Shown in pieces: positions 2 to 57,829 of a DNA stretch of 64,000 nt; positions within the stretch are counted from its first letter, which is position 1, and the number at the start of each line of letters is the position of its first letter. The stretch comes from Boothiomyces macroporosus (Eukaryota; Chytridiomycota; Chytridiomycetes; Rhizophydiales; Terramycetaceae), in NCBI GenBank assembly GCA_027604185.1, contig JADGKB010000066.1, positions 17,301 to 81,300 of the forward strand. The letters run 5' to 3'. Under the pieces are notes generated by a model. It ran no database searches and was not told the DNA's origin. It saw nothing but the letters and a program-made list of their open reading frames with translations. The translations under genes and the position numbers were made by a program.

Positions 2-428
2 GCTTCGTTTTCTTATTTGATGCAGTTTTTAGGGATTTTGAATTGTATGGGGTGTTTGGATAGGCTACATAAATATTGCAAGGCTCGGTACTTGAGACGG
101 AATACTATTCTTGGATTACTTGCTTTATCTTGTACTTTATATTAACTCAGGTTGTATTTCTAGTTTTTATTGTACCGTGCTTCTTATTGAAACAGATATA
201 TACCTTGCTGAATCCAATACATCCACGGGTAGTTTGTACGGAACGACTTACTGGATGTTTAACCCTACTCTGCTCAATAATAGCAGGCTAATTGGTGATC
301 TGCAGAGCTGGAGTGTTATAAATGCAGTTAGAGGAAGCTTGGGCATAATCGGTTATTTATTGATGCGTATGATGAAACGGCCAGCCTTGGAAATCAAGAA
401 ATCCAATTCAACTGTTAATGAAGTATAA
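2..428 (+). CDS. Orphan multi-pass membrane protein, 3' part only
   Basis: The reading frame is already open at the window edge, so only the C-terminal part of this gene is present. A 19-nt intron (132-150, GTAC...CTCAG) joins the upstream frame to a second exon that encodes a hydrophobic helix, a Thr/Asn-rich loop, a last helix and a basic tail ending at TAA 426-428. The short polar tail after the last helix resembles the 7TM proteins at 30.3 and 46.7 kb, so I place it in the same orphan seven-helix group. It ends 8 nt from the stop of the convergent nucleotidyltransferase-like gene. No function can be given. A start at the internal ATG of position 111 would place the intron inside the coding sequence and is rejected. 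Confidence 0.55.
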
Positions 429-436
429 TCAATATA

Positions 437-1330
437 TTATGACAAGTCTAGTGATTTGAAAGCATTTATAATAGCTTCATTGATTTGTTGTTCAGAGAGA
501 CCAATAAGTGTATCTTGATTGATTGATTTTAGCACTCTGCCAACAGCTTTGCCAGGTGGAATACCGAGTACTTTGATTACTCGATCGCCATCAACCAACT
601 TGCTAATTTGAGGCTTTGCCAATAGTTTCTGCTCAATCACGTCTTGTTTTTTAAAGTAATCAACACAATGCTTTGCCAAATCTGTCGTTTCATCCGTTTC
701 GAGTTCACTAGTGTATGCCTGGTAAAAAGAGAGAAACCTGCTAAACATGCCTCTCTTTTTTTCTTGCCTTCTCTGTGTGGTTTTCAACTCACCAACTTTC
801 CATTTGGTACCAAACCATTCAAACACTTGCTCTTCGTTTTCAAATCCGTACTTTTCAATGTCTAATCCGAAACAATCACAGATTGATTTCGGGTCGCTTG
901 ATAAATGGATTATTTCAAGAGTATTTGGAGAGGTGTACAGTTTGTAAACTAGACCGTTTTCGTTTAGTTTGAGATTATGCGGTTTTAAGAGGTAGCCGAA
1001 AATAATACCAAAGTCAGAGTACGATAAACAGAATTTGGATAGTTGGATATCTTTTGTATGTAGTAAATCTACCTGTACATTCTTGTATTCAAATGACAGG
1101 ATCGGGCCTTGCTTGTTTACTTGCGGCGGATTGAATACTTTCAAATCAATCGGTTTCTGGTCGGATACCAGGATGTCAATATCTCCATGGTCCAGTTTAG
1201 TTGGTAATTGGTCCAGTGTGTCTACTTGTGAGTAGTGCTGCTTTAGTATGGGAATTAGTTCATTAAGGATTTTGCGATATTCCTCTGTGGTTACTCTTCT
1301 TGTAGGGATATTGAATGCGTTTCCACCCAT
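437..1330 (-). CDS. Nucleotidyltransferase-like protein
   Basis: A single-exon protein of 297 residues. It begins with MGGNAF and carries DHGDIDILVSD near residues 47-57, the Gly/Asp pattern of the nucleotidyltransferase superfamily that places metal-binding aspartates (DxD) on a strand. The region after it (residues 60-180) looks like the rest of a polymerase-beta-type palm domain, and the C-terminal 100 residues are helical and may bind RNA or a partner. There is no signal peptide or membrane segment, so it should be cytosolic or nuclear. Its substrate cannot be told from sequence; tRNA, small-molecule or protein nucleotidylation are all possible. The start is the first ATG, which lies 93 nt from the stop of the next gene on the same strand. 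Confidence 0.6.
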   Translation of the reverse strand: MGGNAFNIPTRRVTTEEYRKILNELIPILKQHYSQVDTLDQLPTKLDHGDIDILVSDQKPIDLKVFNPPQVNKQGPILSFEYKNVQVDLLHTKDIQLSKFCLSYSDFGIIFGYLLKPHNLKLNENGLVYKLYTSPNTLEIIHLSSDPKSICDCFGLDIEKYGFENEEQVFEWFGTKWKVGELKTTQRRQEKKRGMFSRFLSFYQAYTSELETDETTDLAKHCVDYFKKQDVIEQKLLAKPQISKLVDGDRVIKVLGIPPGKAVGRVLKSINQDTLIGLSEQQINEAIINAFKSLDLS

Positions 1331-1423: not shown

Positions 1424-2637
1424 TTATTCACCTTCTTCCATCTCATCACCATCCACTTCATCGACTTCATCCACATCATCCATTTCATCAACTTCGTCCA
1501 TGCCATCAAATTCAAACCCTTGTGCCTCTAGTGCCATGTGCTGTTCTTGCAGCAACTATATTAATATCGTATACCTGATGTGCACGTGTCTCTAAATCAC
1601 CACGAATGCTCAAAAATCTGCAATACTCTGTATTCCACATCCTGCTCTCACTATGACACTTCACTTTACGCACCCCTCCAACATATCCAAAATTAGGATT
1701 ATCCCAATTAATAATTTCTTTGGCAAATATGCTAGCTGTTACTGTATGCCAGATTGACTCTTCAGCGAAATGTGGAAATGCTACTGTTATGCCTTCGATT
1801 TCATCCTTGTACCTAACATTTGGTATTTCTATTCCGTTAGGATTGGGGTATTGCAGCCCTTGTACAAGGTAATTATTAATTACAAATCCTCTCCACCTTT
1901 TACTTAGATTTTGATTACCACGACCAAGAATCAAACTGTGATCTTCTCCATTGCACTTCAACTTCGTCTCCAATGCAAAATGCCGGTCTAGAATCACTTG
2001 ATAGTGGTATATCTTCTACATAGACTTGTCTAGGATGTCCCATCAGCTCTTGCGGACACTTTCTAATCCTCCATTTATCCACCATTTCATCTGGGTTTAT
2101 CACATGAACCATATTGTATTTATACTGCTGAATCAAATTTACATTCCAGCTAGTCTTGAATAGCTTTGTCTTTTTATCAAATGTAATTAGAGCAATTGAG
2201 AATGACATTTCAGTGAACAATTCCGTGTTTAGGATATTAACTATTGTTGAGTATCGTCCATCGTAAATTAGCTTGTAACTTTCTCGGTAGGAATCGGGCA
2301 GCCTGTGTATTTTAGTTTTACCTCGTTAGTTTGAACTTACCTAGATCAATTCAACAGTACGTTTGCATTTACACTCATTTTTACCAAAGCTATCTTTGAG
2401 GTACTGCACTACATTATCGGATAAGTGGGGAAGCTCGGCATTGATCTCTGGTTCGGCAATTGTAGGGCAGTAATCAAAAAAGAAAGCAAAGTCAATTAGT
2501 GACCGAGCTTTCCACATATATTCGTCTAGCGATAGCAAGTAATTTGCTCTGTTTGTCATTGATAAGTGAATGACTGATTTGGTATCCAGATAGTCGCATA
2601 TTTTTTTAAAAGACAGTTGATCCATTTCTGATTTCAA
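1424..2637 (-). CDS. F-box protein of the plant At2g26850/At2g32560-like type
   Basis: Splicing four introns (2341-2360, 2303-2321, 1897-1918, 1556-1574; 20, 19, 22 and 19 nt) gives a 377-residue protein. An F-box (LSFKKICDYLD...) occupies residues 5-45. The rest follows a family I know from plants: GDEVEVQWRRS, then WW, a hydrophobic strand, a SIW motif and GYVGGVRK near the end of the conserved domain. The tail is very acidic (Asp/Glu/Met repeats). F-box proteins recruit substrates to SCF ubiquitin ligases; the target is unknown. Between introns 1 and 2 lies an exon of only 19 nt (2322-2340). Without this splicing pattern the frame meets a TAG at 2341-2343. The spliced length is a whole number of codons, which supports the model. 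Confidence 0.72.
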
Positions 2638-4533: not shown

Positions 4534-4691
4534 CATGATTTATTTTATACAAGATATTTGATGATGTTGTCGAATAGGACTGAAATGAGGGATAGAATGA
4601 TTAAACCATCTATTATGTATTTTATGGCATCTTCGATTTTCTCCATGGATGTTTGAGATTTTAGTAAAAAACATATGGCCCGCCAAGCCGA

Positions 4692-5682
4692 TTACCACAA
4701 GCCTCTCGTTCCTTTTTTATACCATCTCCCGCTACTCTGATCGAATCGCCATTCCTATGTTAGCAATAATTACGTTGAAATAAGGCCTGTTTTCGTATTC
4801 TTGACTGAGGAGCATTTTGTACCTGTTTGGCCGCCAAGTCGGGATTCCTTCATGGGTGGTTCTAAAAAGTGGGAATATATCCTGTTCTCTATAGAAATGC
4901 GGAGTCTTGCACATTACGTAATCAATGCCGTCAAATTTGCTAACACCAGTAATATCAATGAAATGGCCAGTTGTGGTATCTATAAATCGGGCATCAATGA
5001 TATTTCTTTCTTGTTTTCTTCTTACCACATGGTTGGGGTTAACTTCCAAGAGAAAATGGCCGGCTATGATTTGCCTGTGGTACTTTTCTAAATCATAGAG
5101 ATTGTTTGATAGTACTTGAATATCAATGTCGTCATCAAACGGCATTGTCTTTCCACCCCAATGCCATCCCAACAAGGTTCCATGCATGATCCAATATGGC
5201 ATTTCAATGGAATCAGCAAACAGAGCCCAATGTTTAAACACCTGATGAATGTTTTCAAACTTTGTTTCTTCGCTCTTATTGCCAATAGAGTACCTGTGGT
5301 CCAGATGGTGGTACTGATCGTCTTCATAAAAGTACTTTTTATCTTCATTTTTAATAATATCTCTGGGCGACCTGAAACTGCCTTCAGAAGGAGCAAGTTG
5401 GGTTCCTAAAGGTATTTGATACGGATAATTCTTTGGAATCTCCTTCTCATATCTGGCTTTTTTGTATTTGTTTGGTTTCTCTATTTGTAATTCAACTACG
5501 CAATCAGGACCACAGCCGGTGAACACAACCTTGTCTTTGAAAATCTCTACCATTGGCTGTTGCGAGAAGGATTCGAATACTGGTTCAGGTTGAGAGTCGG
5601 TGGAAATGGTGGCAACAAAGTACAGGATGACGAAAAATAATATGGATATACAGATTCTTGATCTTCGATGGATAAAAGGCAT
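4692..5682 (-). CDS. LicD-family phosphotransferase, type II membrane protein
   Basis: 323 residues after removing one 19-nt intron (4755-4773). The intron restores the C-terminal block (EWRFDQSSGRWY), which lines up with the ends of the other LicD proteins here; without it the protein would end in unrelated residues. A signal anchor spans about residues 9-26. The Cys pair in GCGPDC (56-61), the motif PYWIMHGTLLGW (162-173) and the acidic motif PFDDDIDIQV (181-190) are intact, so it should be active as a glycan phosphotransferase in the Golgi. It converges with the LicD gene at 3571-4533, and its start lies about 520 nt from the divergent lectin-like gene. Confidence 0.87.
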
Positions 5683-8643: not shown

Positions 8644-8690
8644 ACAAATATTGATTATTATTCTATTTTCTATATTAAACAAGATCTTTT

Positions 8691-10712
8691 TCAGGAATGC
8701 AAAGGAACACCGATCCAGGCTTGGAGAGAGCTATGGTACTTGTAAGAACGGAACTGCCCTGCTTTCCACCATGGCGCATCTACATCTAAAAGTGCTTTGT
8801 AATTATTTGGTCTCCAAGTAGGTATTCCCTCAAAACTAGTTCTAACAAGTGGGAATATATCACTGAACGTGTATGGCGAGCCACTCTTGTCTTTGACTTG
8901 CCCGTCAATATTCGATACACCTCTAATTTCAATGGAAACCCCAGAAGTGGTATTTACAAACTTTGCATCGATAGCGTTGTTACTTTGATTAGTTCTGATG
9001 ACAAAGTGAGGGTTTAGTTGCACTTCCAAATCACCCATTTTCAAACTAGGAATGTTCAAAAGCTGGTAAAACACGTTTGCGTGTGTATGGACAGTTAGTT
9101 TTTTGCTCCATGGCAATGCTCTGCTTCCAAAATGCATCCCAGCTAATGTTTCACGGGAGATCCAATAAGGGAATTGAAGAGCATCAGCCCAGATCGCAAA
9201 TGCTCTAAACAATTCTGTCAATTCTGCTCCGATAGGAATACCAACACTTTTTTCATTGAAAAAAGCCTTGTCTTGCTGAAGTTGATTTGCCAAGTCTGTG
9301 TCTACCGTCCAAATCACTGCCAAAGAAGATTCTTCAGCGTACAACAGAGTCCCAGGTTTGACATTGTATGGATAATCTGGTGTAATTTTCTCAAGTTCAG
9401 TAAGTCCCAAAGAAGTAGAAGTGGGCTGCTTGGGGGTAAAGGTTAGGGTGTAATTGAATTCGGGGTATTTCGCAAAGGTGAACGGCTCCTTGAAAACTTC
9501 TTTTCCCAACACAGTCTTGGTAGCCTTTTGGGGCTTTTCTTGGGAGAATTCTTTTTTTGGTTTAGAACTAGCTACTTTATCCCAATTTCCTGTTTGATCA
9601 TTGAATCTGTAGTTCTAAAATTACCAATAATTTACCTTGTACGTATTCTTGTTTTTGTACTCCTTGTTCAGTAGCTGTAGCACTTTGTTTGGTCTCCAAG
9701 TTGGCACGCCTTCATAAGTGGTTCGAACTAGCGGAAATAGCGCATCATAAGAGTAGATGTGCGGAGATTTGCACATGATCCGGCCTCTTACGTTGCTGAC
9801 ACCAGTAATATCTATGAAATGCCCGTTATCCATATCAATAAATCTGGCATCAATGACATTTCTGGCTTGTTTAACTCTAACGACATGGTTAGGATTCACT
9901 TCTAGTAAATACTAAAATCAATAACAAAGTACCTTTCCAAATATTAAAGTATCGTGATATTGTTCCAAATCAAAAAGGTTATTGGACAACACTTGAATAT
10001 CCATATCGTCATCAAACGGCATAGTCTTGCCACCCCAATACCATCCCAACAAAGTTCCATGCATGATCCAATATGGAATCTCTACCATATCACTAAACTC
10101 TGCCCAGGCTCTAAACAAGTCATGAATAGCATTCAGGCTTTGATTCTTTGGTAAAAATACCCCGAATCTAGCGTCCAAATGCTGATGCTTTGGAGCTTCT
10201 CTAAAAAACTTGCTGTCCTTGTTGCGCTTTAGATTCCTAGGGGATTGATCAAGAGATAATTTTGAGGGAGTCAAGGTAGACACCAATCCGATTTTGTAAG
10301 GATAATCAACAGGGTTTTCTTTCAACTCCCACTTTGATAAATCAACATTCTCTTTAGGTTGAATAGTAAACTTGGTTTCACAATCCGGTCCGCAACCAGC
10401 AAGCGTAAATGAAGATTGGTATTTTGGCAATGGCTTTGATTCATGCTGGATTTCTCTTCTGTGAAATTCATACTTGTTTTGCTTTTCCTGAACTTGTTCC
10501 TCTTTATTCTTTTGTAATGCCTTTGCAGTTTCCACAAGTTCACTAGTCTTGCTGAGAGTGTATTTCGGTTCCAAAGGCTCATTTGGTTGAATGAGTGGTT
10601 GCTGAACCGACAGTGCTTCCAGGGGAATGTCAACATTTCCGCCGTTACTGTACCATAGAAAGGCTAATATTACAATGATTGACAGTAGTAGTACCTGCCT
10701 GGACCGTCGCAT
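8691..10712 (-). CDS. Tandem LicD protein: intact domain fused to a degenerate one
   Basis: Two 21-nt introns (9912-9932, 9615-9635), both with in-frame stops, join three exons into 659 residues. A signal anchor (about 7-22) is followed by a Gln/Glu/Lys-rich stem. The first LicD domain has CGPDC, PYWIMHGTLLGW and MPFDDDMDIQ (231-240). A short linker leads to a second LicD-like domain with PYWISRETLAGMHFG, but the acidic motif has become LPWSKKLTVHT (about 519-529), so no metal-binding aspartates remain. The later FPLVRTSFEGIPTWRPNNY block is kept. The second half is therefore probably a pseudoenzyme with a structural, regulatory or acceptor-binding role. The frame between the halves is open with no stop, so the fusion is well supported. 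Confidence 0.82.
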
Positions 10713-12248: not shown

Positions 12249-12891
12249 CTACATTAAAACACACTTTTTGGTTTTTTTCTTGATTTCAGGAGGAATTAAA
12301 ACAGCGCGGATGGCTTCGTCAAACACATTCTTGAGACCTTTTTGAGTCAAAGCGGAACATTCGAGGTATTTGACTGCATTAATTTCCTTCATCATTTGCG
12401 TTCCTTGTGGATAAGTAATTGGTGCCATTCTCTTTTCTCGTAGTTTTTCAATAGTGTCCCTGTCTTCTCTCAAATCGAGTTTGGTTCCTACAAGGATGCT
12501 TGGTGTAGAAGGAGCATGATGGGATATTTCTGGGAACCACTACATTAGCAAGACTTACTTTTGTTCTAACGTTCTCGAATGATGGTGGTGATACTAGCGA
12601 AAAGCAAATCAAAAATACGTCGGTTTGAGGGTAAGAAAGTGGACGTAGACGATCATAATCTTCTTGACCTGCTGTATCCCATAATCCTAAATTGATTGGC
12701 TTTCCATCAACCATTACATTAGCGGAATAATTGTCAAATCTATTGTAAATTATTTGGATTACACTGTAGGAATGTATTCACCAGGGAACGCATTTGTGGT
12801 GTAACTAATTAATAAGCATGTTTTCCCGACGGCACTAGACGTTAATATGCGCTTACCCATCACCGACAACTACACATTTTATAGCTTGCAT
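12249..12891 (-). CDS. RAC1: Rac-type Rho GTPase
   Basis: Three micro-introns (12835-12856, 12740-12762, 12540-12558; 22, 23 and 19 nt) give exactly 192 residues, the length of animal Rac1. G1 is GDGAVGKT (10-17), the effector loop is [14 protein letters not shown]3 is DTAGQED (57-63), G4 is TKLD (115-118) and the SAL motif (G5) is present. A polybasic stretch (KKKTKK) precedes the CaaX box CVLM. A terminal Met often favours farnesylation, where many Rac proteins end in Leu. It controls actin and polarity at the plasma membrane. TYPQG in the insert region and [11 protein letters not shown] at the start fit Rac better than Cdc42 or Rho, but I cannot fully exclude Cdc42. Confidence 0.92.
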
Positions 12892-13193: not shown

Positions 13194-15804
13194 TTAGTGT
13201 AAAACAAATTCTACGAGACACTGAGCGTACATTATCCTATCTTCCAAACTTTCCCATCCTTCTTTGACGACAGTTTTCAGCCCTTCTGCATCCAGGTTAT
13301 GGACCAAGTCTCCATGGATCTTTAAATAGGCACATAGAATGGCATTTACAAATTCATAGTCTGTCTTCTTTTCCAACAGTTCTTGAATGTGTGATATGAA
13401 TCTAGAATGTACTTTCAAGTCAATTTCAACTGGCAGTTGACGCAACTCCAGATCTATCTGGCTAGGAGACAGGTTCATTAGATGGTGGAGCAAATCACTA
13501 CTGCTCTTGTTCAGGATTAGGTTTGATAATTCTGTTTGATTGGTTGACATTAATTCTTTTGGTAATATTTTAGACTCAATCTGTGGTGCTTCAAACGTGG
13601 GAATGCTACCGCTAATAGTGGGCAAGAAGAATGGTGCCTTTTCTGGCTGTTTAGGTGGTTCAATTGGCTTGTTTCGTTCCTGATATTAATGAAAAAGTAC
13701 CTTGATTGAATCCAAATTCAGCAAGTTTTGCCATCGAGATTTTGGAAGAGCACTAAATGTAATCATACCTTCCTCAACAGGAATATATTCTTCATCCGGC
13801 ACTATTTCTGGCTCTGAGCTTTCTTCATCTTCCAATGATACACCATTGGTGGTTGGAAGCAACAAGGAAGCAACATCATCGCCCGAAATACTCTTGAGCG
13901 GAATATGAGTGTATTGAGATTTGTTTGCCCACAAGAATATGCCAACATGGCCGACGTGAGTTGTTGCAATAAAATCGCCAATTGGGGAAAATGAGAGAGA
14001 GGTACAAATTTGTTCAGTCTTGAATACATCAATCAAGAATCCAGTTGGTAAATCCCAAGTTCTAATTGTAGTGTCCAAACTGGAACTAACCAGCCAGCGT
14101 CCATCTGGTGAAAAGTCCAGACAAGTAATTCTGTTACTGTGCCCGACAAACTCTCTCACGATTTTGAATGTATCTATGTCAACCACCCTGATAATTCGGT
14201 CATCAGTAACAACCGCCAGCAATCTGCTTTCGTTGTGTAGTTTAAAGAATGAAATTGAGCTTTCCAAATCAATACTGCTTAGCAAAGTGGACTTGTTGAA
14301 ATCCCAAAACTGAATTAGGAGGATAATACCTTTAGTTTATGATCCAAAGAAGCAGAAATCAAGATTTTGTTTACGTTGTCCGACCCTAAACAGGTAATCG
14401 CGCTGTCATGAGCCTGTATAGTCTGTCTAAAAAGACCACTCTGGATATTGTACTTGTCAATATTTCCTTGAGATGTGGCCAAGAAACAAAAGTTACCGCA
14501 AGCACTGATCAATACCGCTTTGATTGCAGAGTTATCTTTTGCAGACAATACATGCTTTCCAATTGCTTTTCTTTGGAAGCTCCAGGTTCTGGCTTTAGAA
14601 TCTCCAGAATGGCAAGTTACAATGTTATCCCACTCTTTTTGTTTCATTTCATCTATCGTTAAAATTCATATACTGGAATCAAACTGAATTATATTTGGTA
14701 GTCGGAGATTATTCAAACTTGTCTTGAATTGCTTTGATTTCTTTTCCAAAGATCCTTGAGACAATTCGGTATTTTGAGAATCCCTGATGATAGAAAACAG
14801 ACGTAAAGATTGATCTTGGCCGCTGGATAAAATGTAATGGCCAAGTTGATCATAGTATTTGATGCTGGAAGGAGGTTTAAAATGGCCTGATCTTGACTTA
14901 AGTAGTCTTGGGGTTCCGTCTAAACTGTCAAATATCCATTGCTTGATTGAGTTATCACTTCCAGCGGTAACTAATAATGGCATTCCATTAAAGAAAAAGC
15001 AAGTATGAATACTAGACAAATGGCAATTTGTCATCAAATGTACAAGTCTTTTTTCACCAAGATCCCATAGTGCCAAGTCGCCAGCCATGGAGCCTGTAGC
15101 CATAATAGTTTGGCCATCGGTACGGAATGAAATTGAAGTGACTTTTCCTTCCTGGTTGAAGCGCATGATTTCTTTATCCATTTTAATATTGTGCAGGATA
15201 ATAGTCCCATCTAGGAGACCAAACGCAATAACATCAATAGACGGAGATTGAGTCATGCAAGTTACCGGACTGTTGAATTTAAACTCGTACAATTTAGATA
15301 CTGTTCTGATGTTCCACAGTTGAACTTTGTTGTCGAATACCAACAAAATCTTGTTTAAATAAGTCGATGGATGTAACAAATGAGTAACTGGCTCCCCAAT
15401 TTCAATTTCATTTTGATATTCGCTCGTAATATAATTGTAAATATAAATACCAGATTCATGAGCTGCAATACAAAAGTCTCCAAATACCATCAACTCTAGT
15501 ATTTGCGATTCAGTATCTATGGTGCTAATGATTTTCTGTCTGTTGTAAATGATTATTTTTGTATCCGCTGAAACGATAGTATAATCCTTGATGGACTGAA
15601 TACTAGTGATGGTTGAATCTATTGAATCACCGACAATCAACAAAGACATTTTTTCACCCTAGGATTAATGTTGGTTACATCTAGAATTTGAAATGAAGAC
15701 CCAATCGAAGAAGTAATGAAATAGTGCTGACCGCGAGCTTGAATTGCCAACGGAATGGAGCCTGTGATGTAACCAAGAGCTCTAAATGGTGCAAACAATC
15801 CCAT
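13194..15804 (-). CDS. UTP21: U3 snoRNP-associated WD-repeat protein Utp21 (WDR36)
   Basis: Four micro-introns (15659-15678, 14653-14673, 14310-14329, 13680-13700; 20, 21, 20, 21 nt) connect five exons into 842 residues. The start MGLFAPFRALGY is the typical Utp21 N-terminus. Two seven-bladed WD propellers follow (WDLPTGFL and DHKLKFWDF style repeats), with the Utp21 signature EWDNIVTCH...ARTWS between blades. The protein ends with the Utp21 C-terminal helical domain (APFFLPT onward, ending LEDRIMYAQCLVEF). It is a subunit of the UTP-B part of the small-subunit processome, acting in nucleolar 18S rRNA maturation. Each splice restores conserved residues, so this gene is the strongest proof of the micro-introns. 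Confidence 0.93.
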
Positions 15805-16541: not shown

Positions 16542-17009
16542 TTAAAACAAAGCAGCGCCGCCAGCTTCAACGATTTGTTGAGCGATACGGTCCAAATCCT
16601 TTTGTCCATCAGCAGAGATTTGTCTTCCACTACAATTAATGATAATTTACCCGTTTGGATCAGCTTCAAGTACAGAAATCTTTTCAAGAGCTTGGACTAC
16701 TTTGCGGGCAACACTTCCACTTCCGTCTCTGTGCTTGGATGGGCGGACACCTCTGTTGACGGATCCACCATAGTTCTTTTTCAAACCACCGATACCGGTA
16801 CCCTTTCTAAGGTAAATGTGACGAGCAATTGAAGCAGCTCTGACATAGAACCAATCTGGATCATATGGAGCAAGGTCCTTGTGTGGTCCAGTCTTGACAA
16901 GGTCAACCCACTTTGGAACTTCCAAACGACCAGTTCTCTTCAAGTAAGCAGAGTATGCTTTAACGAATGCTTGTGCTGAAACGTCCTTTACTGTAACTCC
17001 AGAACCCAT
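16542..17009 (-). CDS. RPS19: 40S ribosomal protein eS19
   Basis: 148 residues after removal of a 21-nt intron (16630-16650). It starts MGSGVTVKDVSAQ and follows the eS19 family throughout: PKWVDLVKTGPHKDLAPYD, WFYVRAASIARHIYLR, GGSVNRGVRPSKH, ARKVVQALE. After the intron comes the conserved end GGRQISADGQKDLDRIA. It is a structural part of the small subunit head, needed for 18S rRNA 3' maturation. Length matches the family. The intron contains an in-frame stop, so unspliced mRNA would lose the last 30 residues. Confidence 0.97.
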
Positions 17010-17469: not shown

Positions 17470-19761
17470 ATGACTATCGAATTACTATCCGCTCTTCGTA
17501 ACCGCTTGGTATACTTGCCATACTCTTCTCAAGAAAAGACTGACTTGGCGCTGTCAATTTTGAATGGAATGAAAGTTTACGTCAATCGCGAATCCAAAAT
17601 CAATCATCATTCAGCTGAATATCCTGATATTGATCCAATTCCAAGAGCTCAGTTATTATTCGAAGAAGCGCACTTGCTTTCGGACAATGAATTCCATTCC
17701 AAAGCACTGGATTTGTTTTTCTCGCTCCGAGATTTACAGTAAACATCAATTAACGATAGCACTACCTACAATAGGCCAGGTACTTTTTGCAACACAGTTA
17801 TTACTACTGCTTTAGTCTTTGAGCTTATTGATTCCGACGATTTAATTCGAAACCCACGAGTAGTTGTATCTGGATTCAGTAGCTACAAGAAAGTCTTTGC
17901 TCTCTCTCCTGTGGACGGAATTTCACTTGGAGATGAGCTATTAAGTGTAAATGGATTATCATTCAAACAGTTTTATGAAGCGAATAAGTGGAAGACTGGA
18001 GGAGCTAACGAATATGGAGGAATGAGAAGAGCGCTCACATACTTGGTGGAACGAAAACTTGGACGCACTCCAGTCCCAGACGCAGATGTAATGGAATACT
18101 CGTTGAAGCGACCTGATGGGGCAATCTACACTGTCCAGCTTCCATGGTTTGCTCGATACGATCCAAAGGATTTTGAAACCTGTAATCAAATATTCCAAGA
18201 GTTGGAGTTACCATTATTAGAGTTTACTAGTGAACAAGACGAAATGATAAATGAATCCAAAGTTGAATCTTCTGGATTTAAGCTATCCGACACTTCAGTT
18301 AAGCAAATTAAATGGGGGATATATAAACCAGATACTTTCAACATGGGTGTAATTGCAATCGAAGATTTTACATTTAGAGGGGATCTTGGCAGAAACTTGA
18401 TAATCAATTTATTACAAACAGAACTAAAGGATACCAATTGCTTATTAATCGACTTGAGGAATAATGGTGGTGGAAATGGGTATATTTCCGGTATCCTTGT
18501 AAAACTTTTGAAGGGTGGTTTTGTAAAAGTGCACCAGTGTAGAGTTATGGCAAATGAAATATCACAAACCTTCCTGTCCAGTCAATATCCTGATGCCAAG
18601 TGGAAAGATGCTACTCTATGTTCTCCAATTGATATGATGGGTCAACCTGATGAAGGACAAGAGTATTTCAAACCTGCTGGTTTGTTTACAAATGCCGCAT
18701 GCTATTCAGCCTGTGAATCTGTTTGCTCAACACTTCAGAATAATGATGCTGTAATAGTGTTTGGTGAAGATGGTCAAACTGGAGGTGGTGCAGCTAGGAA
18801 ACTAGACGATAGGTATTTGAGCCAATTCCAAGATTTCACTGCGATGCCTTATAGTAAAAATTACCCATCAGTTAGTGGAAGATTCTTCATAGGTATACAT
18901 CAAACTGTCAGGAGTGGCAAATACGCTGGTCAAACTTGGGAGGATGATGGTGTCAAATCAGATTATATCTTCCGTCCAAAAAAAGGTGATATTATTAAAA
19001 GAAACAATTATGCCAGGTATGAAGATATTGCAAAGATCCTGAATCAAGTATCTATCGACAAGAACCTGTTTGGAGTTTCATTTTCTACCGTTCCTTCAGG
19101 TTCGTTAACTACAGAATTGGAAAAAGATGTAATATATGAAGTAGAAGTGAGTGGAATATCGAATTTGGTGATCAAAAAGGGCACTAAAGTATTACACACT
19201 TACAATATCGAACCAGTGGAAGTCAAAAAGAAACTCAAGGTTACAATCAAAGAGCACAATATTAAACCAGGCTATTACGACTACAATTTCATTGGTTTGA
19301 ATTCTAAAGGAGATAAGGTGATTGATTCTGTTAGGAAAGTGCGATTCGTTCCTAAAACAAATGGTTTGGTATGTGTAGACAACTTTTTCGTTGAAAATCA
19401 AAGCGAGTCAGAAAGCAATCCATTAGCACAATGGAAGGTTGCTGGTTCTGGTTGGGCAGTTGGCCCCAAATTATTCAACAACTGCAACACATCACTTGTC
19501 TTGCTAGCCAACCCTTCAGATTCGGTAGTCTTAAAGTTGAAATACACACTTAACTGTGAAGCCTTGTTTAAAATATCTGTTATCGACCAAGAACAAACCA
19601 AGTGCCTGAAATTCACTGATGATCCAATTGATGCTGAGGAAGAATATTGGTTTACTCCGATAGGCAAATGGGAATTGCGAATTGATTTCTGTTGTTGGGA
19701 AAATAACAAAGATGCATTCATGGCGATCCAGTATTTAGATATTCGTACCGTTTCTGAATAA
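17470..19761 (+). CDS. S41-type (CPAF/C-terminal processing-like) serine peptidase
   Basis: 756 residues after removing a 21-nt intron (17739-17759), which restores DLHTTYNRPG, a conserved block of fungal and CPAF-like S41 peptidases. A PDZ-like region follows (ISLGDELLSVNGLSF), then the core: LLIDLRNNGGGNGYIS, and TNAACYSACE with the likely nucleophile at Ser 406, then VFGEDGQTGGGAA. A beta-rich C-terminal domain of about 230 residues has no family I recognise. No signal peptide is visible from the ATG at 17470, so it is probably intracellular, which is unusual for this group, many members of which are secreted. The substrate is unknown. Confidence 0.8.
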
Positions 19762-20641: not shown

Positions 20642-21441
20642 TTATAAAGTAACATCTTTGGACAAATCAACTCCATCCAAATGGGTATTAGTCATCTTGA
20701 ACCTAGAATTCTTTTTCTTTTTCTTTTTACCAGAAGCAGTAGCAATATTCCTCTTTTGTAAATCAACTTGCATTGCTTTCAACCCAGCTTTGTCCAGCTC
20801 TTTAAGTAAATCTATTTTCGACGGTACTTGAATATCATGCTGAGTTAGTATAGGTTACCCATTGCTGTTTGAATTCATCATCTATATCTATCGAAGAGTC
20901 CTTGTAGTATATAAACAGTGGAGAGTTGTCCTTTAGACTCCTGACACAGAATATTTGTTTTTCATTGTAGAGCTCTTCAATCAGCGGCACTACTCCTCCA
21001 TATGAATTTTGTAATTCTTTGACTTCCATTGCACAAATGTTCTTGTTTTTTTTAACCAGGGCCAGCAAATCTTGCTTTGTTTTAATATTGTAAGCAGGCT
21101 ACATTAACATCAAATACTTTGAATTCAAACTTTCCATTTTCGTATTTGATTCGATCATTTTCCAGTACTTTTTTAAACAGCTCTTCGGTCCCTTCAACAT
21201 CTATTGCTGTTTTTCTAATCAATTCCTTATTGTCAATTGGGTGTAACTCATTCTTTAGACACTGTATAACTTCAAAAAGCTGTCTTCCAATTGGTACGGT
21301 TTGGTTTGAATACAAGACGGGAGTGATTTGCTTTGTGGGAAGAACATAGTCGTTATGCGGCTGAGATAAATCTTGCTTTTTTATTATTGGCTGATTCAGC
21401 TGCTGTCTTCTAAAGTTTGCCTGTTGTTTTTCAAAAGACAT
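20642..21441 (-). CDS. TFA2: Transcription initiation factor TFIIE subunit beta
   Basis: Two 19-nt introns (21099-21117, 20840-20858) give 253 residues. The core has the two winged helices of TFIIE beta (LFEVIQCLKN...HPIDNKELI; PAYNIKTKQDLLALVKKN). The C-terminus is lysine-rich (seven Lys) followed by FKMTNTHLDGVDLSKD, a signature of this subunit. It binds TFIIE alpha and helps TFIIH loading at RNA polymerase II promoters. It is shorter than most homologues mainly at the N-terminus, which is Gln-rich. Both splices restore family residues. Confidence 0.9.
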
Positions 21442-21673: not shown

Positions 21674-22049
21674 TTACATTGCATTCTTGTTTGCATAAAC
21701 CTATTATTAAAAAGAAATACTTTTTCAACAGCTTGTCTAGGAGTGAAAATCTCTTCAGCATCACGATCGCTAATTTCAATATTGAATTCATCTTCAAGAG
21801 CCATTGTAATTTCAACTTGATCGAGTGAATCTAATCCGAGATCGTTCACAAAGTGGGCATCCAAAGCAAGCTAATTTAGAACGAAAATACTTTTTGTTGT
21901 TGAACTTTGTCAAAGTCTTTCAAGAGGTTGAGGACTCTGTCTTCGATATCTTGGATTGTGAGTGGAGGTGGTCCGGCGGAAAAGTATCTGAATGAAAGTG
22001 GTTTAATTAGTGTTGGTTTGAATGAAATTCTTTTAACAAGTCTGAACAT
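21674..22049 (-). CDS. ACP1: Mitochondrial acyl carrier protein
   Basis: Two 20-nt introns (21871-21890, 21701-21720) give 111 residues. The N-terminus ([20 protein letters not shown]) is a basic, amphipathic mitochondrial presequence ending near RYFSAG. The carrier domain has [15 protein letters not shown], where the Ser of DSL receives phosphopantetheine. It serves mitochondrial fatty acid and lipoate synthesis and is also a subunit of complex I and of the Fe-S assembly complex. The last intron replaces an unlikely end (FLFNNRF) by the normal VYANKNAM. Confidence 0.95.
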
Positions 22050-37336: not shown

Positions 37337-38790
37337 ATGAACAAACTGCAAGGAATTGGATCAACATCTCTTTATGGATTCACTCCAGCAATTAATTTGA
37401 TTGATAAAACCCCGCAAGGACCTGTCAACATCCTACTAGCAAATACTAGTGATATTCGACACGTTTATCCAACCATTGCAGCAAACCCGCAATCTGAAAT
37501 CAATTTCTATATAATAGAGCCGCAATCGACAGTCAACTGCCGCAACTTGTTGCTTTTTAATCTCTTTGTGACTGAAGATGAAATATCTGTACAAGGTACA
37601 TAGTATTAACCCAGAACAAGTGGAAATGTTTCTCGATCTATACAATAATACCTCAATCAGCGAGCGCACTTTTGACTACATTATCAGCGCTTCCAAATCA
37701 CTCATCAAAACCATCACAGATAGCAAAGGGATCCTTCACGACATGATATCTCTATCATATCTGAAATATCGCGAAAGAGACGATTTGGAATTTGTTTTAA
37801 AGTTTTACCTTTCAAAACCATTTGAAGTTTCTACTCTATGGGATACCAGATTACGAACTTTGTTGCGTTCAAGGTACGATTCAAGGGACAATGTGTTTGA
37901 CTGGGACTACAATATGAAGCTTTTAGATTCAGATCCAAGGAAAAAGTATATACACAAGAAACAGTATTGTAAGTGGAGAAATACAGGGTCTTGGTATTTG
38001 CTCCGATCTAATCAAACCAAAGTAAATAAAACTATGGCTACAGTGGATATAATGAAAATCGATGGAGTAGGTGTAGCCAAGTATGGTGTATTCAGCGATA
38101 TAGTACTAGGACCATTTCAATGTTTTGGCATTGAAACTGAAAACCAAAAACTGCTCAAGCTGGAAAATGATAGACCTACTCAAGTAATATCCACTAATCT
38201 AGACTGTTCAAGAAATTATGGAATGGAACATCAGAGATTGGATTTGTAAAACGAGGGGAATTTCTGTTGTTGGTAAATTGTTTTTAAATGTTGAACCTGA
38301 AGAAAAGATTGTGGAGGAAAAGAGTGGGGAAATGAATGATGAAAAGATTGTGGAAATAACGGGTGAGATGGAAGCGAATAAAATAGCTGAAAATGAAATT
38401 GGCCCAGAAAATGGCACTGTTGATCAACCAGAATCAATTCCACTTGAAGATAATTCGATTGCCCTTCAAAACCAAGAACAGGGAACCACACAGTACAACA
38501 AACCACCAGTAAAGCTGCATCTTCTTCCTTGCGATCCAGCGGCTACATTCAACAAACCGAAAACACTAAAATTTGACGTAATTTATCTTGGTTCCAGTAT
38601 CGCCCATAGGCTGCAAGATGTAAACAAAATCAAAAAAGGAGATTCCAAGGTCTATGTAGAGTTGATCGATGGTGTGTTTGAAATCGGTAAAGAAGAAAGA
38701 AAAATGTACAAGGACAAGATAATTGATATTGGCAAGGCACAAGGGTTGAACATTGTGAAAGAAACAAAAGATTATCTTTTATTCCAATAA
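37337..38790 (+). CDS. DNAAF3: Dynein axonemal assembly factor 3
   Basis: Two 19-nt introns (37596-37614, 38184-38202) give 471 residues. The N-terminal block (GSTSLYGFTPAINL; VNILLANTSDIRHVYPTIA; INFYIIE) and the central block (RLRTLLRSRYDSRDNVFDWDYNMKL; KKQYCKWRNTGSW; YGVFSDIVLGPFQCFGIE) match DNAAF3. An acidic low-complexity insert of about 100 residues follows, then a conserved end (FDVIYLGSSIAHRL...VELIDGVFEIGKEERK). It acts in the cytosol to preassemble inner and outer dynein arms. Its presence means the organism builds a motile flagellum. Confidence 0.88.
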
Positions 38791-51239: not shown

Positions 51240-52670
51240 ATGCATCTCCAACTTTTCATAAACAGGTTTGGAATTTACTACACAGTCAAGATACTAGTCT
51301 CTTTTTTGAGAAACAGAAAAAAGGGACTCAAGCTGGTGGATTCGTCCAATTCTAGATTCGCGTTGATGTTGGCTGGATTTGCAACGTACCCATCGCTAGT
51401 GGAAGTATTCCCCTCCAACAAGTACAAGCATTTTATTGCTGGATGCATATCCGCCTTGTGGTTGCTGGTTGATAACGATCCCAAGCGCACTGCTACAATA
51501 TCACAAATTGTCTTTATTAGGACAGTCTATTTCGTAATTAGAGCTTGGGTATACAAAGGGGCAAAAGAATCTGGACTACAGGAATTACCGGATAGTAAAA
51601 ACAATCATGAAAGTGATTCGCATCACAGGGAACTAGAATTAAGAATGTCAAATTCGCCAATAGTAAACAATTTGAAAAAATTGATTCATTTACATGGAGA
51701 TCATATCGTTTGGGCCTCTTCAGCGTTCCATATATGCTTTACCGCGTTCAATTTCTCTGAATACCTCTCCAAATCATACTTCAAGTCACTTGTGTACATT
51801 ACCGGGTCTTATGAAAGATTTGGACCAGACGCGGCAAATATTATTATAGGGATGAGCAATATCATCAAATACGGAACTAGACATCCTGAAAAACTACCAG
51901 ACATTCCAGCAGGAAAATCTACAATTGAATACTTGAATGTGTTTGAAAAGAGTCTACCCACAACAGAAGAGGGTAATGCATTTAAAAAGAGTGTAGATGC
52001 AATTAAAGGAGCCTTACCTCCAAACGTTCATCATACAAAGTTCATTTGCGCGATGCAACATCCAGAAACTGCAAGTTGCACAATAGCAGCACTGCATACA
52101 TGTAATAACAGTTAATATTAGGTAGAGACGTAGTGCGCAGACTCATCAAGATTTATATTCTCCTGAACTTGGTTAGTTTATCAGTTTCATTTGGTTCATT
52201 AGCCCATAGCAAATACAAAAAGAAAACCACTAAAAAAACTGCATCGTTCATCATAAAAAGCGCGATTGTTAATACTATTAGGTCCTGCTTAATGGTTGCT
52301 GGATTCGTTGGGGGCTTTTCACTTTCGCTATGTACTCTAAGAAAACTGTTTGGGAGAGAATACTTGGTTAGTTGGGGACTAGCAGGAGTAATGGCAACCC
52401 CGTCAATTCTGATTGATAAACCAGGTAGATTACTTGAAATGAATACTTTTAGTGCAACAAAGACTTTTGAGTCGCTAGTATTGTTTTTGCATCACCACAA
52501 GATTCAGAGTTACAACAGGTACACTTTTTTAACATAGGTTTGTTGAAATGGGTGTAATGATACCTACTATTGGTGTGCTTTGTACGATCATGAATGAATA
52601 CCCGTATGCTATGAATGGATACATGACTGGTATATTTAAATGGATATTTAATATAAAATCGCATTCGTAG
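51240..52670 (+). CDS. TMEM135-like membrane protein
   Basis: Introns of 20 and 19 nt (52102-52121, 52519-52537) give 463 residues. Two halves resemble each other, as in TMEM135: LMLAGFATYPSLVEVF...AGCISALWLLVDNDPKRT in the first, and CLMVAGFVGGFSLSLCTLRKLF...AGVMATPSILIDKPGR in the second. Between them lies a Cys/His segment (KFICAMQHPETASC). Four or more TM helices. In animals TMEM135 acts at peroxisomes, lipid droplets and mitochondria in lipid and sterol handling. The ATG at 51240 is chosen because the paralogue begins at the equivalent place. Confidence 0.66.
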
Positions 52671-52737
52671 ACTATTTTCGGATCGGATAAAGTATTCAAA
52701 CTTGACTATTCTGATCTTGGAATTCTTTATTCAGCAA

Positions 52738-54155
52738 CTAGTACTTTTCTTCATGGAATATCATTTTCAATGGCGGAACAACAAATCCTCTCAAAGCATG
52801 TTTATGCTCAGCCATAATGGTAGTCAAAGTAAATACAGTCGGAATCATCACCAAAGTCTCAAATAACCTACTATTAAAGTATAGTACCTAGTATATCTAA
52901 ATCCATACTGCTGGAAATATAGAATTATAGTGTCAAATACTTTGACAAAACAGTACGCGTTCATTTCAACCATTCGTCCAGGTTTATCTAGTAAAATTGC
53001 CGGTGTAGCACACAGTCCGCCCAAGAAGTGAAAAATCAAGTGTTCCTTTTTAAACATCCTTCTAAAAGTACATGAAGAGACATTGAATAACCCAACAAAT
53101 ACTGAAATCATTAAACACATTTTCAGTGTATCGATTAGTAATCTGTAGGCTTTGTGAGGCAAGCTTTTCCTATTCTTGTAGAGTGATATTAATGTTGAAA
53201 CCAAGTTGTATAAAAAATATGTTTTTGCCATTGATTTAGATATATTCCATGCTGAGTTAGTAAGATAAACCTATGCTTAGTGCACTAATGTAGCAATTAT
53301 CCTGTTGTGGATGGTGAAGCATGCAACAGAACCTAGTGTGGTTTGCGGTAGCAGGCACAAGCCATTTAAATATTTCAACCGTCTTTTCTAAATCAATATT
53401 GGATTTCAAGTTTGACAAATATTCTAGTGAAGTAGTTCCAGATGGTATAGCTTGATCCACACCATTTGCAATATAATACTTTGTAGCTTTAGACACTTGC
53501 TCAACTACTGGTTCGTATTTGGATCCATATCTGTTTGACACTGCCATCAATTTTAATATAGTATTATAGTAACCTTTCTCTAGTTAACAAAGAGTACCTC
53601 CATGAGTTCAGGATAAGGGTACTGCAGAGTACACGCATGCACTGAATTAGCAACCCAAATAATCCAGTGTCCATAATAGTGAATATAGTTCAACAGGTAT
53701 TGCAAGTACTTGTTTTGTACAGTTCTGACTTTAGATTGATGGTCATGCAAAACTTGTTCTTGATGCTCACTCTGTTTTTCTCCTGTAGGCTCTACATACA
53801 CTGCAGCCCTAATCAAAAAGTAGAGAGTGCGTACAAATACCAGACTGGATATTGTCCTTGTTCGTTTGCTATCCCTATCCGCCAACAACCACAGGGAAGA
53901 CACTCCTCCTGCTAACCCTGGACAAAAATCTGGATTTATTCCCAGCTTCCTAAATATGTAAAGAAGCAAGGGATAAAAGCTAGATACACCAGCCAACGAT
54001 ATGGCAAATTGAGCATTGGAAATATTAATCAAAATTGACTTCAGACTTTTCTTTCTGTTTTTTAATAATCCGGCAAGTGATAGTAATGTCTTTAGCGCAT
54101 ATATAAGCGCAAATCTTTTTGAAAATATTTCTGCTGTTCGTTTCGCCAGATTCAT
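52738..54155 (-). CDS. TMEM135-like membrane protein, paralogue of the convergent neighbour
   Basis: Introns of 20, 19 and 20 nt (53578-53597, 53252-53270, 52868-52887) give 452 residues. The first uses an AG two bases beyond CTAG (ends CTAGAG); the nearer AG gives a stop. The layout equals the gene at 51.2 kb: LAGGVSSLWLLADRDSKRT, RFCCMLHHPQQDNC and ATPAILLDKPGRMVEMNAY. The start is ATG 54155 (an upstream in-frame GTG is not used). Stops of the pair are 67 nt apart, so the duplication was inverted. Confidence 0.66.
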
Positions 54156-54860: not shown

Positions 54861-55763
54861 TTAAAGAATTAGTATGACAGTTGAAATTACCGCAATAAAT
54901 GCAAATCGATCATTCGAAGCTGATTCACTTGGCTTATTATTGGAAGTTGACCCTGAGTTAGACCCTCCAGTTGAATTACAGGAGGAAGCACCAGCCGAAG
55001 AAGTAGATCCTGCTGGACACGAAGAGCATGAAGAAGACCCACTAGTTGAGTAAGTTCCGGCAGAGCATGTTGTGCAGGCTGATGATCCTGATGTTGAGTA
55101 AGTTCCGGCAGGACACGTTGAACAGGATGATGATCCAGAAGTGGAATATGTCCCAGGGGAGCATGAATAGCACAAAGATGACCCTGATGTTGAATAAGTT
55201 CCAGCAGAGCAATATGAGCAATATAAAGATCCAGCGGAAGAGTATTCTCCAGCAGAGCAAGTTAAACAGGATCCAGAAGATCCATAATATCCACCTGAGC
55301 ATACATAACTTGCCAAGCTTCCTGATGAAGTGGTTGAGTAAAAATTAGGATTCCCAATCACCAAGGAATACGTTTGAGAAGTGTCCACAATACATGTGGA
55401 GGAACAATATGAGGTCCCAGTACACGAACACCCAGTTAGGTAAGTACAAGTGTAGATAAGATTTTGTGTACATGCAGCAACATTGCTAGAATACATAAAA
55501 TAGTAGTTTAGGGGGTAACCAGATGAACTTGAAAGAGAATAGTCCACTTCTTCAGTGACAGCATTAAAATTAATAGTGTAAGAGCTTCCACCACCAATTG
55601 AATAGGACACAGATCCTCTTTTGTAGTAAGTCAAATTGCTTAAGTCAGTAATATTTACAACAGGCCCCACGGTAGTCCAATTTCCCGTTATAGTTGTAGT
55701 TTCGTTTTGCGTGACCCGAACAGCATTGACAGTCTGGAGATAGACAGTAGCCAAAAAAATCAA
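54861..55763 (-). CDS. Cys-rich repeat surface protein, probably GPI-anchored
   Basis: About 300 residues. A Ser/Tyr/Thr-rich N-terminal domain with N-glycosylation sites and paired Cys leads to seven or so repeats of about 15 residues of the form AGTYSTSGSSSC-xx-C, like the GCC2/GCC3 or ephrin-receptor-like repeats (CPAGTYS) of many protists and fungi. After a Ser/Gly-rich linker it ends in a hydrophobic tail (FAFIAVISTVILIL) typical of GPI signals. A hydrophobic signal-like segment (IFLATVYLQTVNA) begins the frame, but no ATG lies in frame before it, so a first short exon upstream is probably missing from my model. Confidence 0.65.
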   Translation of the reverse strand: MIFLATVYLQTVNAVRVTQNETTTITGNWTTVGPVVNITDLSNLTYYKRGSVSYSIGGGSSYTINFNAVTEEVDYSLSSSSGYPLNYYFMYSSNVAACTQNLIYTCTYLTGCSCTGTSYCSSTCIVDTSQTYSLVIGNPNFYSTTSSGSLASYVCSGGYYGSSGSCLTCSAGEYSSAGSLYCSYCSAGTYSTSGSSLCYSCSPGTYSTSGSSSCSTCPAGTYSTSGSSACTTCSAGTYSTSGSSSCSSCPAGSTSSAGASSCNSTGGSNSGSTSNNKPSESASNDRFAFIAVISTVILIL

Positions 55764-56845
55764 AGAAGCAGTAATTCTTTGTAGTATAGAAGAAAGTTGA
55801 CGTACAACGCGTTATTTATATGAATGAATAAGCCACGGCAGTAATTACAAGCAAGACATAATACTTTCAGGTGTCTTAAGACTGGCTTTCTCACACAATT
55901 CATGAACTTGGAGGATGGGGAGGCTCCGGAAAGTAATGCGATGTCTACATACAATTAGCCTGAAAAAAGAACGGTGAAAAATGAGCAATTTGAATAATTA
56001 AAATAGAGAATGGATGGAGCATTCAAGAATGCAGAACTATAATTCTGGTGTGTCCTTAAACTAAACAGCTCCTCCTATCTTGCCAGATTCTTTGTTCATT
56101 TAATAACTGATTATGGAACTATATCACAATGCGTAATTGACAGTAATGTGTCAAACTAGCAAGTACACGACGTTTATTATTCTATCAGGCTTGATTTATC
56201 AAATAGGAAACCATTCCCAACTAGGAGACTGGAAAGAATGAATGAAAAATGCTCAACCAGATGAGTTATTTCTAATTCGCCAAAAGATGCAACAAAAGGA
56301 CATTGGTTCGATCATACATGACAATATCATAATTTGATTTTGCGGATTGCTAGCTTTCCATAATATCGGCTGTGGTTTATAAAACGCTTTGCATACATTG
56401 AGAATTTGTTTGCTTACCTTCTATTCTCCCTTATATTCATTAATAGCTAACTTTCCTACAAGTTTTCATTGTTAATGGTTGATTCCTACGAAATATGTGT
56501 TTTTTGAAAATCCACGGCAACACGAGAAGAACGCGCAATGAAAAAATAGTTTTGTGGCTGACAATTTTTAGTTTTTTGTCACAGCTAAAAATGGGGGTTT
56601 CAAAACGCAAAATTTTATTAGATGTACATCCAGAAAAATGTCAGCCACCATCCAAAATTTTTGACTATTGCAAAAGGGCGTTCAAAACTGAATGAAAATG
56701 TTTGTTATTGTCACGTGGAAATAATCTGAATTCATAATTTTGAATGATCAATGCCACGTGATAATATGGATATTCAACGTTAAACAAATTTTAATTTGTA
56801 AGAAAAATATTTGTGGTTTATAATCCCCAAATATTTTTCGTTGAT
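55764..56845. other. Intergenic region with inverted repeats at the compositional boundary
   Basis: No gene recognised. GTGGCTGACA (from 56551) recurs inverted near 56639-56648, and a perfect 12-bp inverted repeat (GAAAAATATTTG, 56802-56813 and 56828-56839) lies just after the stop of the coiled-coil gene. From here on the sequence is noticeably more AT-rich. Confidence 0.4.
56802..56839. terminator. AT-rich hairpin next to the coiled-coil gene's 3' end
   Basis: Twelve-base perfect arms with a 14-nt loop, 7 nt beyond the stop of the minus-strand gene at 56846. The position suggests a 3'-end signal, but fungal 3' ends do not need hairpins, so it may be a remnant of a mobile element instead. 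Confidence 0.3.
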
Positions 56846-57829
56846 TTATTTAAAATCTAAGAAATTCCCAGCTGGATTATCACTATCGGTTCTTGCACCA
56901 TTGTTCCACATATGTTTAAGTATTCTATATTGAACACCATTTAAATCATTTTGGGTTACTATCATTTTAGTAATTGGCATTTTCGGACGATGAATGTCAG
57001 CTGATATTGCACTATAAACCTTCGCTAAATCTTTTTTATCATGATCTCTATTAAAATACATATTAACGTACTGTTGAAGAGCATCTGTAGCATTAAGGGT
57101 TGGAAATTGTTTTTTTACAACTATTTCAAGCATAGAACGGCAGAGTGTCTGATATTAATTATAATAAACTTTTCTAACATAATCTTCATATTCATTCTTG
57201 GAATATTTTACATATTCATTTTTTAATCTTTCAATTTTGTTATCTATACAACCTAAATTGTCTGCATCTGGGAATTTAATACAAAATTCATTGTTGATTT
57301 CCTTTTCACATTTTGAAATTTCTTTTAATTTTGTTTTAATTTTATCATTCATTATAGTCTCCAATTCACTATTGACAAAATATAGTAAAGATGCAATAAT
57401 TCTTTCTAAAAATATATCATAGTCCGATGTAATAATACCCTTCCAATCCCCTTCTATCCCCATTTCACCAAGAAGTATAGCTTCAATTTTATAAATAAAT
57501 TTCAAAAAATCGTTTTGAATTTTGTTAAATTTTGTTGTCTTTTCTCTTATTTTAAAATTTTGTCTCTTTTCCCTTAACACTTTAAGAACAGCCTTATTTT
57601 TTTGATTATTTTCATCTTTACAGGATTGTTCAATATTTTTAATTTTATCTAAAAGTTTTTCGTATTCTTGTTGAGCATTTTTAATATTATTGAATTCTGC
57701 AATACGTTCTTCATTTTCAGTTCTCCAGCTTTTAACTTTTTTGTACACATCTGTGTTTTTAATTTCATTGTTGAGTTCATTTTTCAATAACTCCCATTGA
57801 GTTACTAATGCTTCCACCTTTGCATCCAT
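56846..57829 (-). CDS. Coiled-coil protein of unknown function
   Basis: A 21-nt intron (57149-57169, with in-frame stop) joins two exons into 320 residues. Residues 1-110 are strongly helical and charged (WELLKNELNNEIKNTDVYKK...), and the rest is Lys/Glu/Ile/Asn-rich without membrane segments. The short second exon ends GNFLDFK. Very high A+T in codon use (AAA, GAA, AAT, ATT), unlike genes before 55 kb. I recognise no family. Confidence 0.6.

Follow-up and report, generated by a model that had tools for sequence, protein, structure and literature searches.

Uniform and tiny introns occur in nucleomorphs and in Paramecium, each a lineage of its own. For the ciliate Stentor coeruleus, the sections of PMC9505925 used here describe introns of 15-16 nucleotides (nt) whose branch adenosine (branch A) is nucleotide 10 or 11 and is followed by a tail of 5 nt, and a table in the same paper gives Slu7 and Prp18 as not found and U2AF and SF1 as present. 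Stentor is also said to have different branching factors. For the mikrocytids, the corresponding sections of PMC10245619 give introns of 16-17 nt, 224 of them in Mikrocytos mackini, along with 17-19 identified spliceosomal proteins, and characterise microsporidian introns as few and relatively short. In budding yeast, Saccharomyces cerevisiae, Prp18 is said to keep the branch and the 3' splice site 10 nt or more apart, the shortest natural case being 10 nt and the shortest seen without Prp18 being 7 nt, and in Debaryomyces hansenii the spacing is mostly 7-8 nt (PMC10711555, in the part drawn on here). Here we analyse a stretch of 64,000 nt (the window; bases 17301-81300 of contig 66) from the 15.2 Mb assembly of the chytrid Boothiomyces macroporosus, and conclude that the introns of this nuclear genome are, almost certainly, U2-type (major) spliceosomal introns shrunk to a near-fixed 19-23 nt, with a mode of 20 nt. 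Literature searches on chytrid, fungal and Boothiomyces introns, in a collection without most subscription journals, listed no title or abstract beginning that describes this, and the portions of PMC8371127, PMC12075339, PMC5364385, PMC13391722 and PMC6572847 at hand do not state how long introns are in this clade.

The species belongs to the order Rhizophydiales and the family Terramycetaceae, which also contains Terramyces sp. JEL0728. Boothiomyces is a free-living chytrid. The window UTP21 is close to the deposited HK103_006266 of B. macroporosus, and the window DNAAF3 is identical to the protein of that species.

Introns in the conserved genes of the window

Two tools were used. A spliced protein-to-DNA aligner charged a flat cost for GT-AG introns of 10 nt up to 500-1500 nt and permitted GC-AG introns at extra cost, with one Rac test admitting nine donor types; a similarity-free gene finder used codon scores only, treated all intron lengths from 10 to 300 nt alike and had no motif model. 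An AG acceptor was obligatory in every run save four of the seven decoys described below. An early codon-only gene finder was abandoned, as it merged genes via long introns. The initial annotation had placed tiny introns in UTP21, RPS19, TFIIE beta, acyl carrier protein (ACP), Rac and DNAAF3, and spliced alignment bore this out for all six:

15659..15678, minus strand: UTP21 intron 1, 20 nt, GTAACCAACATTAATCCTAG; spliced alignment with Terramyces and four other orthologues
14653..14673, minus strand: UTP21 intron 2, 21 nt, GTATATGAATTTTAACGATAG; orthologue and PDB alignment; the deposited model implies 66 nt
14310..14329, minus strand: UTP21 intron 3, 20 nt, GTATTATCCTCCTAATTCAG; orthologue and PDB alignment; one of five orthologue queries gives 38 nt
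13680..13700, minus strand: UTP21 intron 4, 21 nt, GTACTTTTTCATTAATATCAG; orthologue and PDB alignment
12835..12856, minus strand: Rac intron 1, 22 nt, GTAAGCGCATATTAACGTCTAG; Rac1 alignment; the Terramyces model reads through it
12740..12762, minus strand: Rac intron 2, 23 nt, GTAATCCAAATAATTTACAATAG; Rac1 alignment
12540..12558, minus strand: Rac intron 3, 19 nt, GTAAGTCTTGCTAATGTAG; Rac1 alignment
16630..16650, minus strand: RPS19 intron, 21 nt, GTAAATTATCATTAATTGTAG; spliced alignment
21099..21117, minus strand: TFIIE beta intron 1, 19 nt, GTATTTGATGTTAATGTAG; spliced alignment
20840..20858, minus strand: TFIIE beta intron 2, 19 nt, GTAACCTATACTAACTCAG; spliced alignment
21871..21890, minus strand: ACP intron 1, 20 nt, GTATTTTCGTTCTAAATTAG; spliced alignment
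21701..21720, minus strand: ACP intron 2, 20 nt; gene finder only
37596..37614, plus strand: DNAAF3 intron 1, 19 nt, GTACATAGTATTAACCCAG; alignment, and implied by the identical deposited protein
38184..38202, plus strand: DNAAF3 intron 2, 19 nt, GTAATATCCACTAATCTAG; alignment, and implied by the identical deposited protein

The clearest cases are Rac and UTP21. Aligned to a PDB Rac1, which we take to be the human protein, the Rac gene opens at its three introns and 155 of 176 residues are identical without a gap; with the Terramyces model, which is without four conserved residues at that place, the third intron becomes 31 nt. UTP21 agrees with its Terramyces orthologue at 758 of 837 residues (90%) across four introns, and the same four are obtained with the orthologues of Entophlyctis, Gorgonomyces and Schizosaccharomyces pombe, while the Batrachochytrium dendrobatidis query gives 38 nt in place of 20 at one junction. 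The two DNAAF3 introns are found with the proteins of Boothiomyces sp. JEL0866 and of Globomyces, the latter adding a 141 nt intron at the tail that we take as spurious, and the shorter Terramyces model yields only a 10 nt artefact; the splice product has 471 residues, equal to the deposited protein. The gene models of the annotators already use such introns: the deposited DNAAF3 implies two of 19 nt, and the deposited UTP21 implies 20, 66, 20 and 21 nt, the 66 nt intron resulting from a misplaced donor and removing 15 residues that are retained in Terramyces.

Length distribution and sequence of the introns

Beyond the window, the gene finder was run on 51 merged segments, 181,611 bases in all, that had been picked for the gene families in them, for a total of 245,611 bases or 1.6% of the 15.2 million, a sample that is thus not random. 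At 19-22 nt it made 62 GT-AG calls against 2-9 for seven decoy signals; at 23-25 nt the numbers were one against 2-8, and at 26-300 nt 55 against 80-105. Because GT-AG exceeds the decoys only at 19-22 nt, a 10-14 nt class weighed below being set aside, there is a sharp population at these lengths and no sign of a longer one. Longer introns were within reach of both methods: when the 62 introns were lengthened by 20, 40, 80 and 150 random bases, the finder called 53, 45, 48 and 44 of them, counted by expected length, and the aligner, applied to 26 loci after the exclusion of four that overlapped, recovered 41 of 41 at 30, 60 and 150 bases.

Similarity gives the same picture. Spliced alignment of 30 Ras-family loci produced 50 distinct introns, nine of which (16, 19, 19, 20, 20, 21, 22, 57 and 822 nt) were dropped for weak flanks; 35 of the 41 well-flanked ones were 19-25 nt long and the other six 10, 14, 46, 279, 539 and 763 nt. 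Five of these six were removed by judgement: the 10 nt row, where the frame reads through, the 14 nt row, which was replaced by a 20 nt alternative, and the three longest, which lie in the C-terminal part of their alignments and whose flanks agree at 2-5 of 12 residues. Together with the introns of the window and of three spliceosome genes, this made a partly hand-typed list of 57 distinct introns, all with GT-AG termini; for three of them, two in LicD genes and one in PRP18, the judgement was made by eye. Fifty-four are 19-23 nt long (12 of 19 nt, 23 of 20, 10 of 21, five of 22 and four of 23), and there is one each of 24, 25 and 46 nt. Within this sample, then, the distribution is narrow and lies below 25 nt. 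The initial annotation had seen no intron longer than 23 nt, which holds for the similarity-supported genes of the window and fails for the genome, and had called the pattern genome-wide, for which the 19-23 nt peak speaks, although the fraction sampled is small and family-chosen. When splice sites were scored too and introns of up to 400 nt admitted, the finder placed 201 of 284 calls at 19-23 nt and 80 above 25 nt, five of the latter starting or finishing with a complete short intron; this run had no decoy control. Over 139 predicted genes, partly incomplete, the density of tiny introns averages 1.47 per gene.

A catalogue was made of 198 distinct introns, 17-24 nt long, for whose selection a motif model was used in part, itself built from the motif-free run. 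Their A+T content is 73%, and the motif TAAY is present in 156 of them, TGAY in 15 and another TNAY in 16. In the 187 introns with TNAY, the presumed branch A, identified from this motif, would lie mostly at position 14 (98 introns) or 15 (67), and mostly 5 nt (86) or 6 nt (76) from the intron end; the initial annotation had remarked that TAAY stands only a few bases before the AG. In the similarity-supported set, 55 of 57 have the motif, with the presumed branch A at position 14 in 21 and at position 15 in 23. A Ras-like gene on contig 7 has less typical introns of 22-25 nt with a weak-looking branch motif.

Stop codons offer a further lead, though not proof. Ten of the 11 similarity-supported introns with a length divisible by three contain an in-frame stop, against 95 of the 163 introns of 19, 20, 22 or 23 nt in the catalogue when these are read on in their upstream frame. 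A deficit of stop-free introns of such lengths is known from Paramecium. Since the gene finder is blind to stop-free introns divisible by three, its own counts are unusable here.

Splicing machinery and competing explanations

All seven spliceosomal parts sought (U1, U2, U6, SLU7, PRP18, U2AF65 and SF1) were found, and nothing among them points to a reduced spliceosome. The small nuclear RNA (snRNA) genes number at least two for U2, one for U1 and one for U6, only the best candidates having been scored. The 5' end of U1, AUACUUACCUG, and the branch-recognition stretch of U2, GUGUAGUAUC, agree with the Rfam consensus, and the 5' site and branch motif of the introns are complementary to them. 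SLU7 was found with an E value of 6e-125 to a PDB SLU7, and its two tiny introns are both confirmed by the aligner; SF1 was found by one domain match, to the helix-hairpin domain. The gene model of U2AF65 has five tiny introns, two of them aligner-confirmed, and the joined protein matches PDB structures over the two-RRM part and the C-terminal domain (residues 343-438), so that it appears complete. The initial annotation had looked to U1, U2AF or SF1 for changes; recognition sequences that match the consensus, an apparently complete U2AF65 and a detectable SF1 give no sign of them. A 3' site so close to the branch had also suggested the loss of SLU7, PRP18 or U2AF, an idea dropped once all three were found. 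PRP18 itself carries a stop-free 21 nt intron, GTATTCCTGTTTTAACTGTAG, recognised by eye, inside a highly conserved stretch. What looked like an insertion of seven residues in PRP18 was really this intron, read through by the gene finder; without it, the gene reads WPIGVDSVGIHER, resembling WPIGVTSVGIHAR of the aligned PDB Prp18. No match to U12 snRNA was found in the genome, the control genomes being likewise without a match. Some 28 bases upstream of the U1 gene and of both U2 genes (contigs 80, 178 and 34) stands a common TATAAATA box; all three also have an identical ATTAAAATGAAA shortly 3' of the RNA, resembling the snRNA 3' box, and TCACATGAC motifs stand upstream of two of the three.

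GT...AG ends, a near-fixed TAAY, protein families restored by removal and complementary U1 and U2 are together best explained by spliceosomal introns, as the initial annotation had supposed. A number of observations weigh against this reading or its sharpness. Excision at the RNA level is inferred from DNA; 11 of the 198 catalogued introns have no TNAY motif; U1 scores 68.8 bits, slightly below Rfam's 69.5, and the exon-wise match of U2AF65, at 230.7, falls below the family cut-off of 310.3. At 10-14 nt the motif-free finder made 15 GT-AG calls against 5-13 for the decoys, which we take as noise. The 46 nt intron belongs to a Rab-like gene of contig 110, where it lies in a conserved stretch and its flanks agree at 8 and 6 of 12 residues; it looks real, and the length limit is then not absolute; the introns of 279, 539 and 763 nt were set aside in three alignments by judgement, and at one of these places there may be a genuine long intron.

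Could the segments be something other than spliceosomal introns? Frameshifts, pseudogenes or assembly errors may break open reading frames (ORFs), and, GT and AG being frequent, some GT..AG will always bridge the break; a loose motif scan of the window indeed rose only modestly above expectation at 19-23 nt, with 66 matches where about 47 were expected. The decoys, however, fall far short of the GT-AG count at 19-22 nt, and the gapless restoration of Rac and UTP21 and the near-fixed branch position speak against it too, leaving this account with practically no credit. Just as negligible, in our judgement, is removal of the segments from DNA or their skipping by the ribosome: all the evidence does come from DNA, but the ends and the TAAY match the genome's own U1 and U2, and most lengths are not multiples of three, so that bypassing would have to fit case by case. 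Self-splicing group I or II introns were also considered and rejected, the segments being about 20 nt long and the window having no Rfam match at the gathering score.

A slightly better, though still very poor, prospect is that the introns follow an ordinary length distribution from which the short ones were a biased pick. The 46 nt intron and the 80 of 284 motif-aided calls above 25 nt could be cited for it, the latter from the run without decoys. Against it, decoys outnumber GT-AG among the motif-free calls of 26-300 nt, lengthened introns were largely (44-53 of 62, finder) or fully (aligner) recovered, and 54 of the 57 similarity-supported introns fall at 19-23 nt.

As spliceosomal introns, these would be handled as follows. 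U1 would pair with the GTAATT-like site at positions 1-6 and U2 with YTAAY, so that nucleotide 14 or 15 would serve as branch A. The lariat loop formed in the first step would measure about 14 nt, and for the second step the AG ending 5-6 nt past the branch would be used; between the two there is no room for a pyrimidine tract. Recognition would presumably take place across the intron, with U2AF65, SF1, SLU7 and PRP18 acting on these very introns, and a deletion bias may have pressed them against the smallest size that the spliceosome tolerates. The most surprising point is the spacing of 5-6 nt alongside PRP18. It is counted to the intron end, as in the consulted part of PMC10711555, and is below both the 10 nt yeast minimum and the 7 nt seen without Prp18; the Prp18 'ruler' would therefore be either relaxed by other changes of the spliceosome or not general. 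We lean, by a little, towards accepting that a fungus with PRP18, SLU7, U2AF65 and SF1 splices introns, thousands of them by extrapolation, with this spacing and with branch A at 14-15.

Neighbouring features, relatives and described systems

The remaining introns of the window come from the gene finder. With lengths limited to 15-60 nt, it made 35 calls, 26 of them at 19-23 nt, in 15 genes, so that the 36 introns in 18 genes first counted were not reproduced. The other nine calls were 16, 28, 30, 32, 48, 52, 55, 57 and 57 nt; that of 52 nt is a 22 nt intron by homology, and those of 30 and 28 nt enclose, by eye, nested alternatives of 19 and 20 nt. With lengths up to 400 nt there were 31 calls, 17 at 19-23 nt and 14 at 28-396 nt; because decoys yield at least as many long calls, the 14 are taken as background, none being disproved singly.

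4755..4773, minus strand: LicD-family intron, 19 nt; gene finder and paralogue residues by eye
9912..9932, minus strand: LicD-family intron, 21 nt; gene finder and paralogue residues by eye
9615..9635, minus strand: LicD-family intron, 21 nt; gene finder only
17739..17759, plus strand: intron in the gene at 17470-19761, 21 nt; gene finder only
30990..31009, minus strand: orphan-gene intron, 20 nt; gene finder only
32546..32564, minus strand: orphan-gene intron, 19 nt; gene finder only
52102..52121, plus strand: intron in the first of two convergent genes, 20 nt; gene finder
53578..53597, minus strand: intron in the second convergent gene, 20 nt; gene finder
53252..53270, minus strand: intron in the second convergent gene, 19 nt; gene finder; its place matches 52102..52121 by eye
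52868..52887, minus strand: intron in the second convergent gene, 20 nt; gene finder
57149..57169, minus strand: intron in the orphan at 56846-57829, 21 nt; gene finder
2322..2340, minus strand: intron in the orphan at 1424-2625, 19 nt; gene finder only; exon structure uncertain, a 32 nt intron being set immediately beside it
1556..1574, minus strand: intron in the orphan at 1424-2625, 19 nt; gene finder only

The two convergent (tail-to-tail) genes at about 52-53 kb resemble paralogues. The LicD (fukutin-like) genes form a cluster at 3571-12021, some apparently fused head to tail and one tested against Pfam, and long intron-poor ORFs at 28667-49393 resemble, by eye, leucine-rich-repeat or F-box proteins. 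At 60579-63648, a tandem duplication with a period of 1823 bases holds one gene twice (compared ungapped, the repeats agree at 1531 of 1599 positions, with 223 identical bases to the left); the window is AT-rich at this end, and next to the duplication, at 59275-60336, is an ORF that is presumably a transposase by its resemblance. In the assembly at large, equal-score pairs of matches (contigs 166 and 189, contigs 19 and 39, and within contigs 3 and 20) are a sign of duplicated sequence or of haplotypes left uncollapsed.

The same shrunken introns would seem to be present in Terramyces. UTP21 and Rac are neighbours in the window (12249-15804) and in Terramyces, where the deposited model fuses them. 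In this fused model, 16 residues are the exact read-through of the 22 nt Rac intron, and because the match is letter for letter, Terramyces very probably has the same intron. The deposited Terramyces Prp18 is without the conserved WPIG stretch (NAAWPIGVDSVG), the site of the tiny intron in Boothiomyces. In a protein from another source, 97% identical to PRP18, the 21 nt intron is translated with Ile in place of Thr; at the DNA level this would correspond to TAAC becoming TAAT, a change that keeps the branch motif. With tiny introns misannotated, surveys of gene families in these chytrids can count losses that are not real.

In Stentor and the mikrocytids, going by the parts of the two papers cited above, tiny uniform introns go together with spliceosomal proteins that are missing or few in number; the presence of every sought part in this chytrid suggests that shrinking to 20 nt needs no loss from the spliceosome. 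The chytrid also makes the 10 nt rule of Prp18 testable and turns the smallest spliceable intron into an experimental question. Microsporidia, relatives of fungi, likewise have short introns, although theirs are few and their spliceosome is reduced. Boothiomyces resembles the mikrocytids in its exceptionally narrow length range and differs from these reduced parasites, as far as the text of PMC10245619 allows comparison, in its intron density and in having all four spliceosomal proteins sought. With D. hansenii, going by the sections of PMC10711555 used here, it has in common a short spacing between branch and 3' site in a fungus, the spacing being shorter still and PRP18 present. Another close system, on the sections of PMC9505925 used here, is Stentor, with the same near-fixed, tiny, AU-rich GU-AG introns, short tail after the branch, conserved U1 and U2 recognition and retained U2AF and SF1; Boothiomyces differs in being a fungus and not a ciliate, in a branch A at position 14-15 and not 10-11, and in the presence of Slu7 and Prp18.

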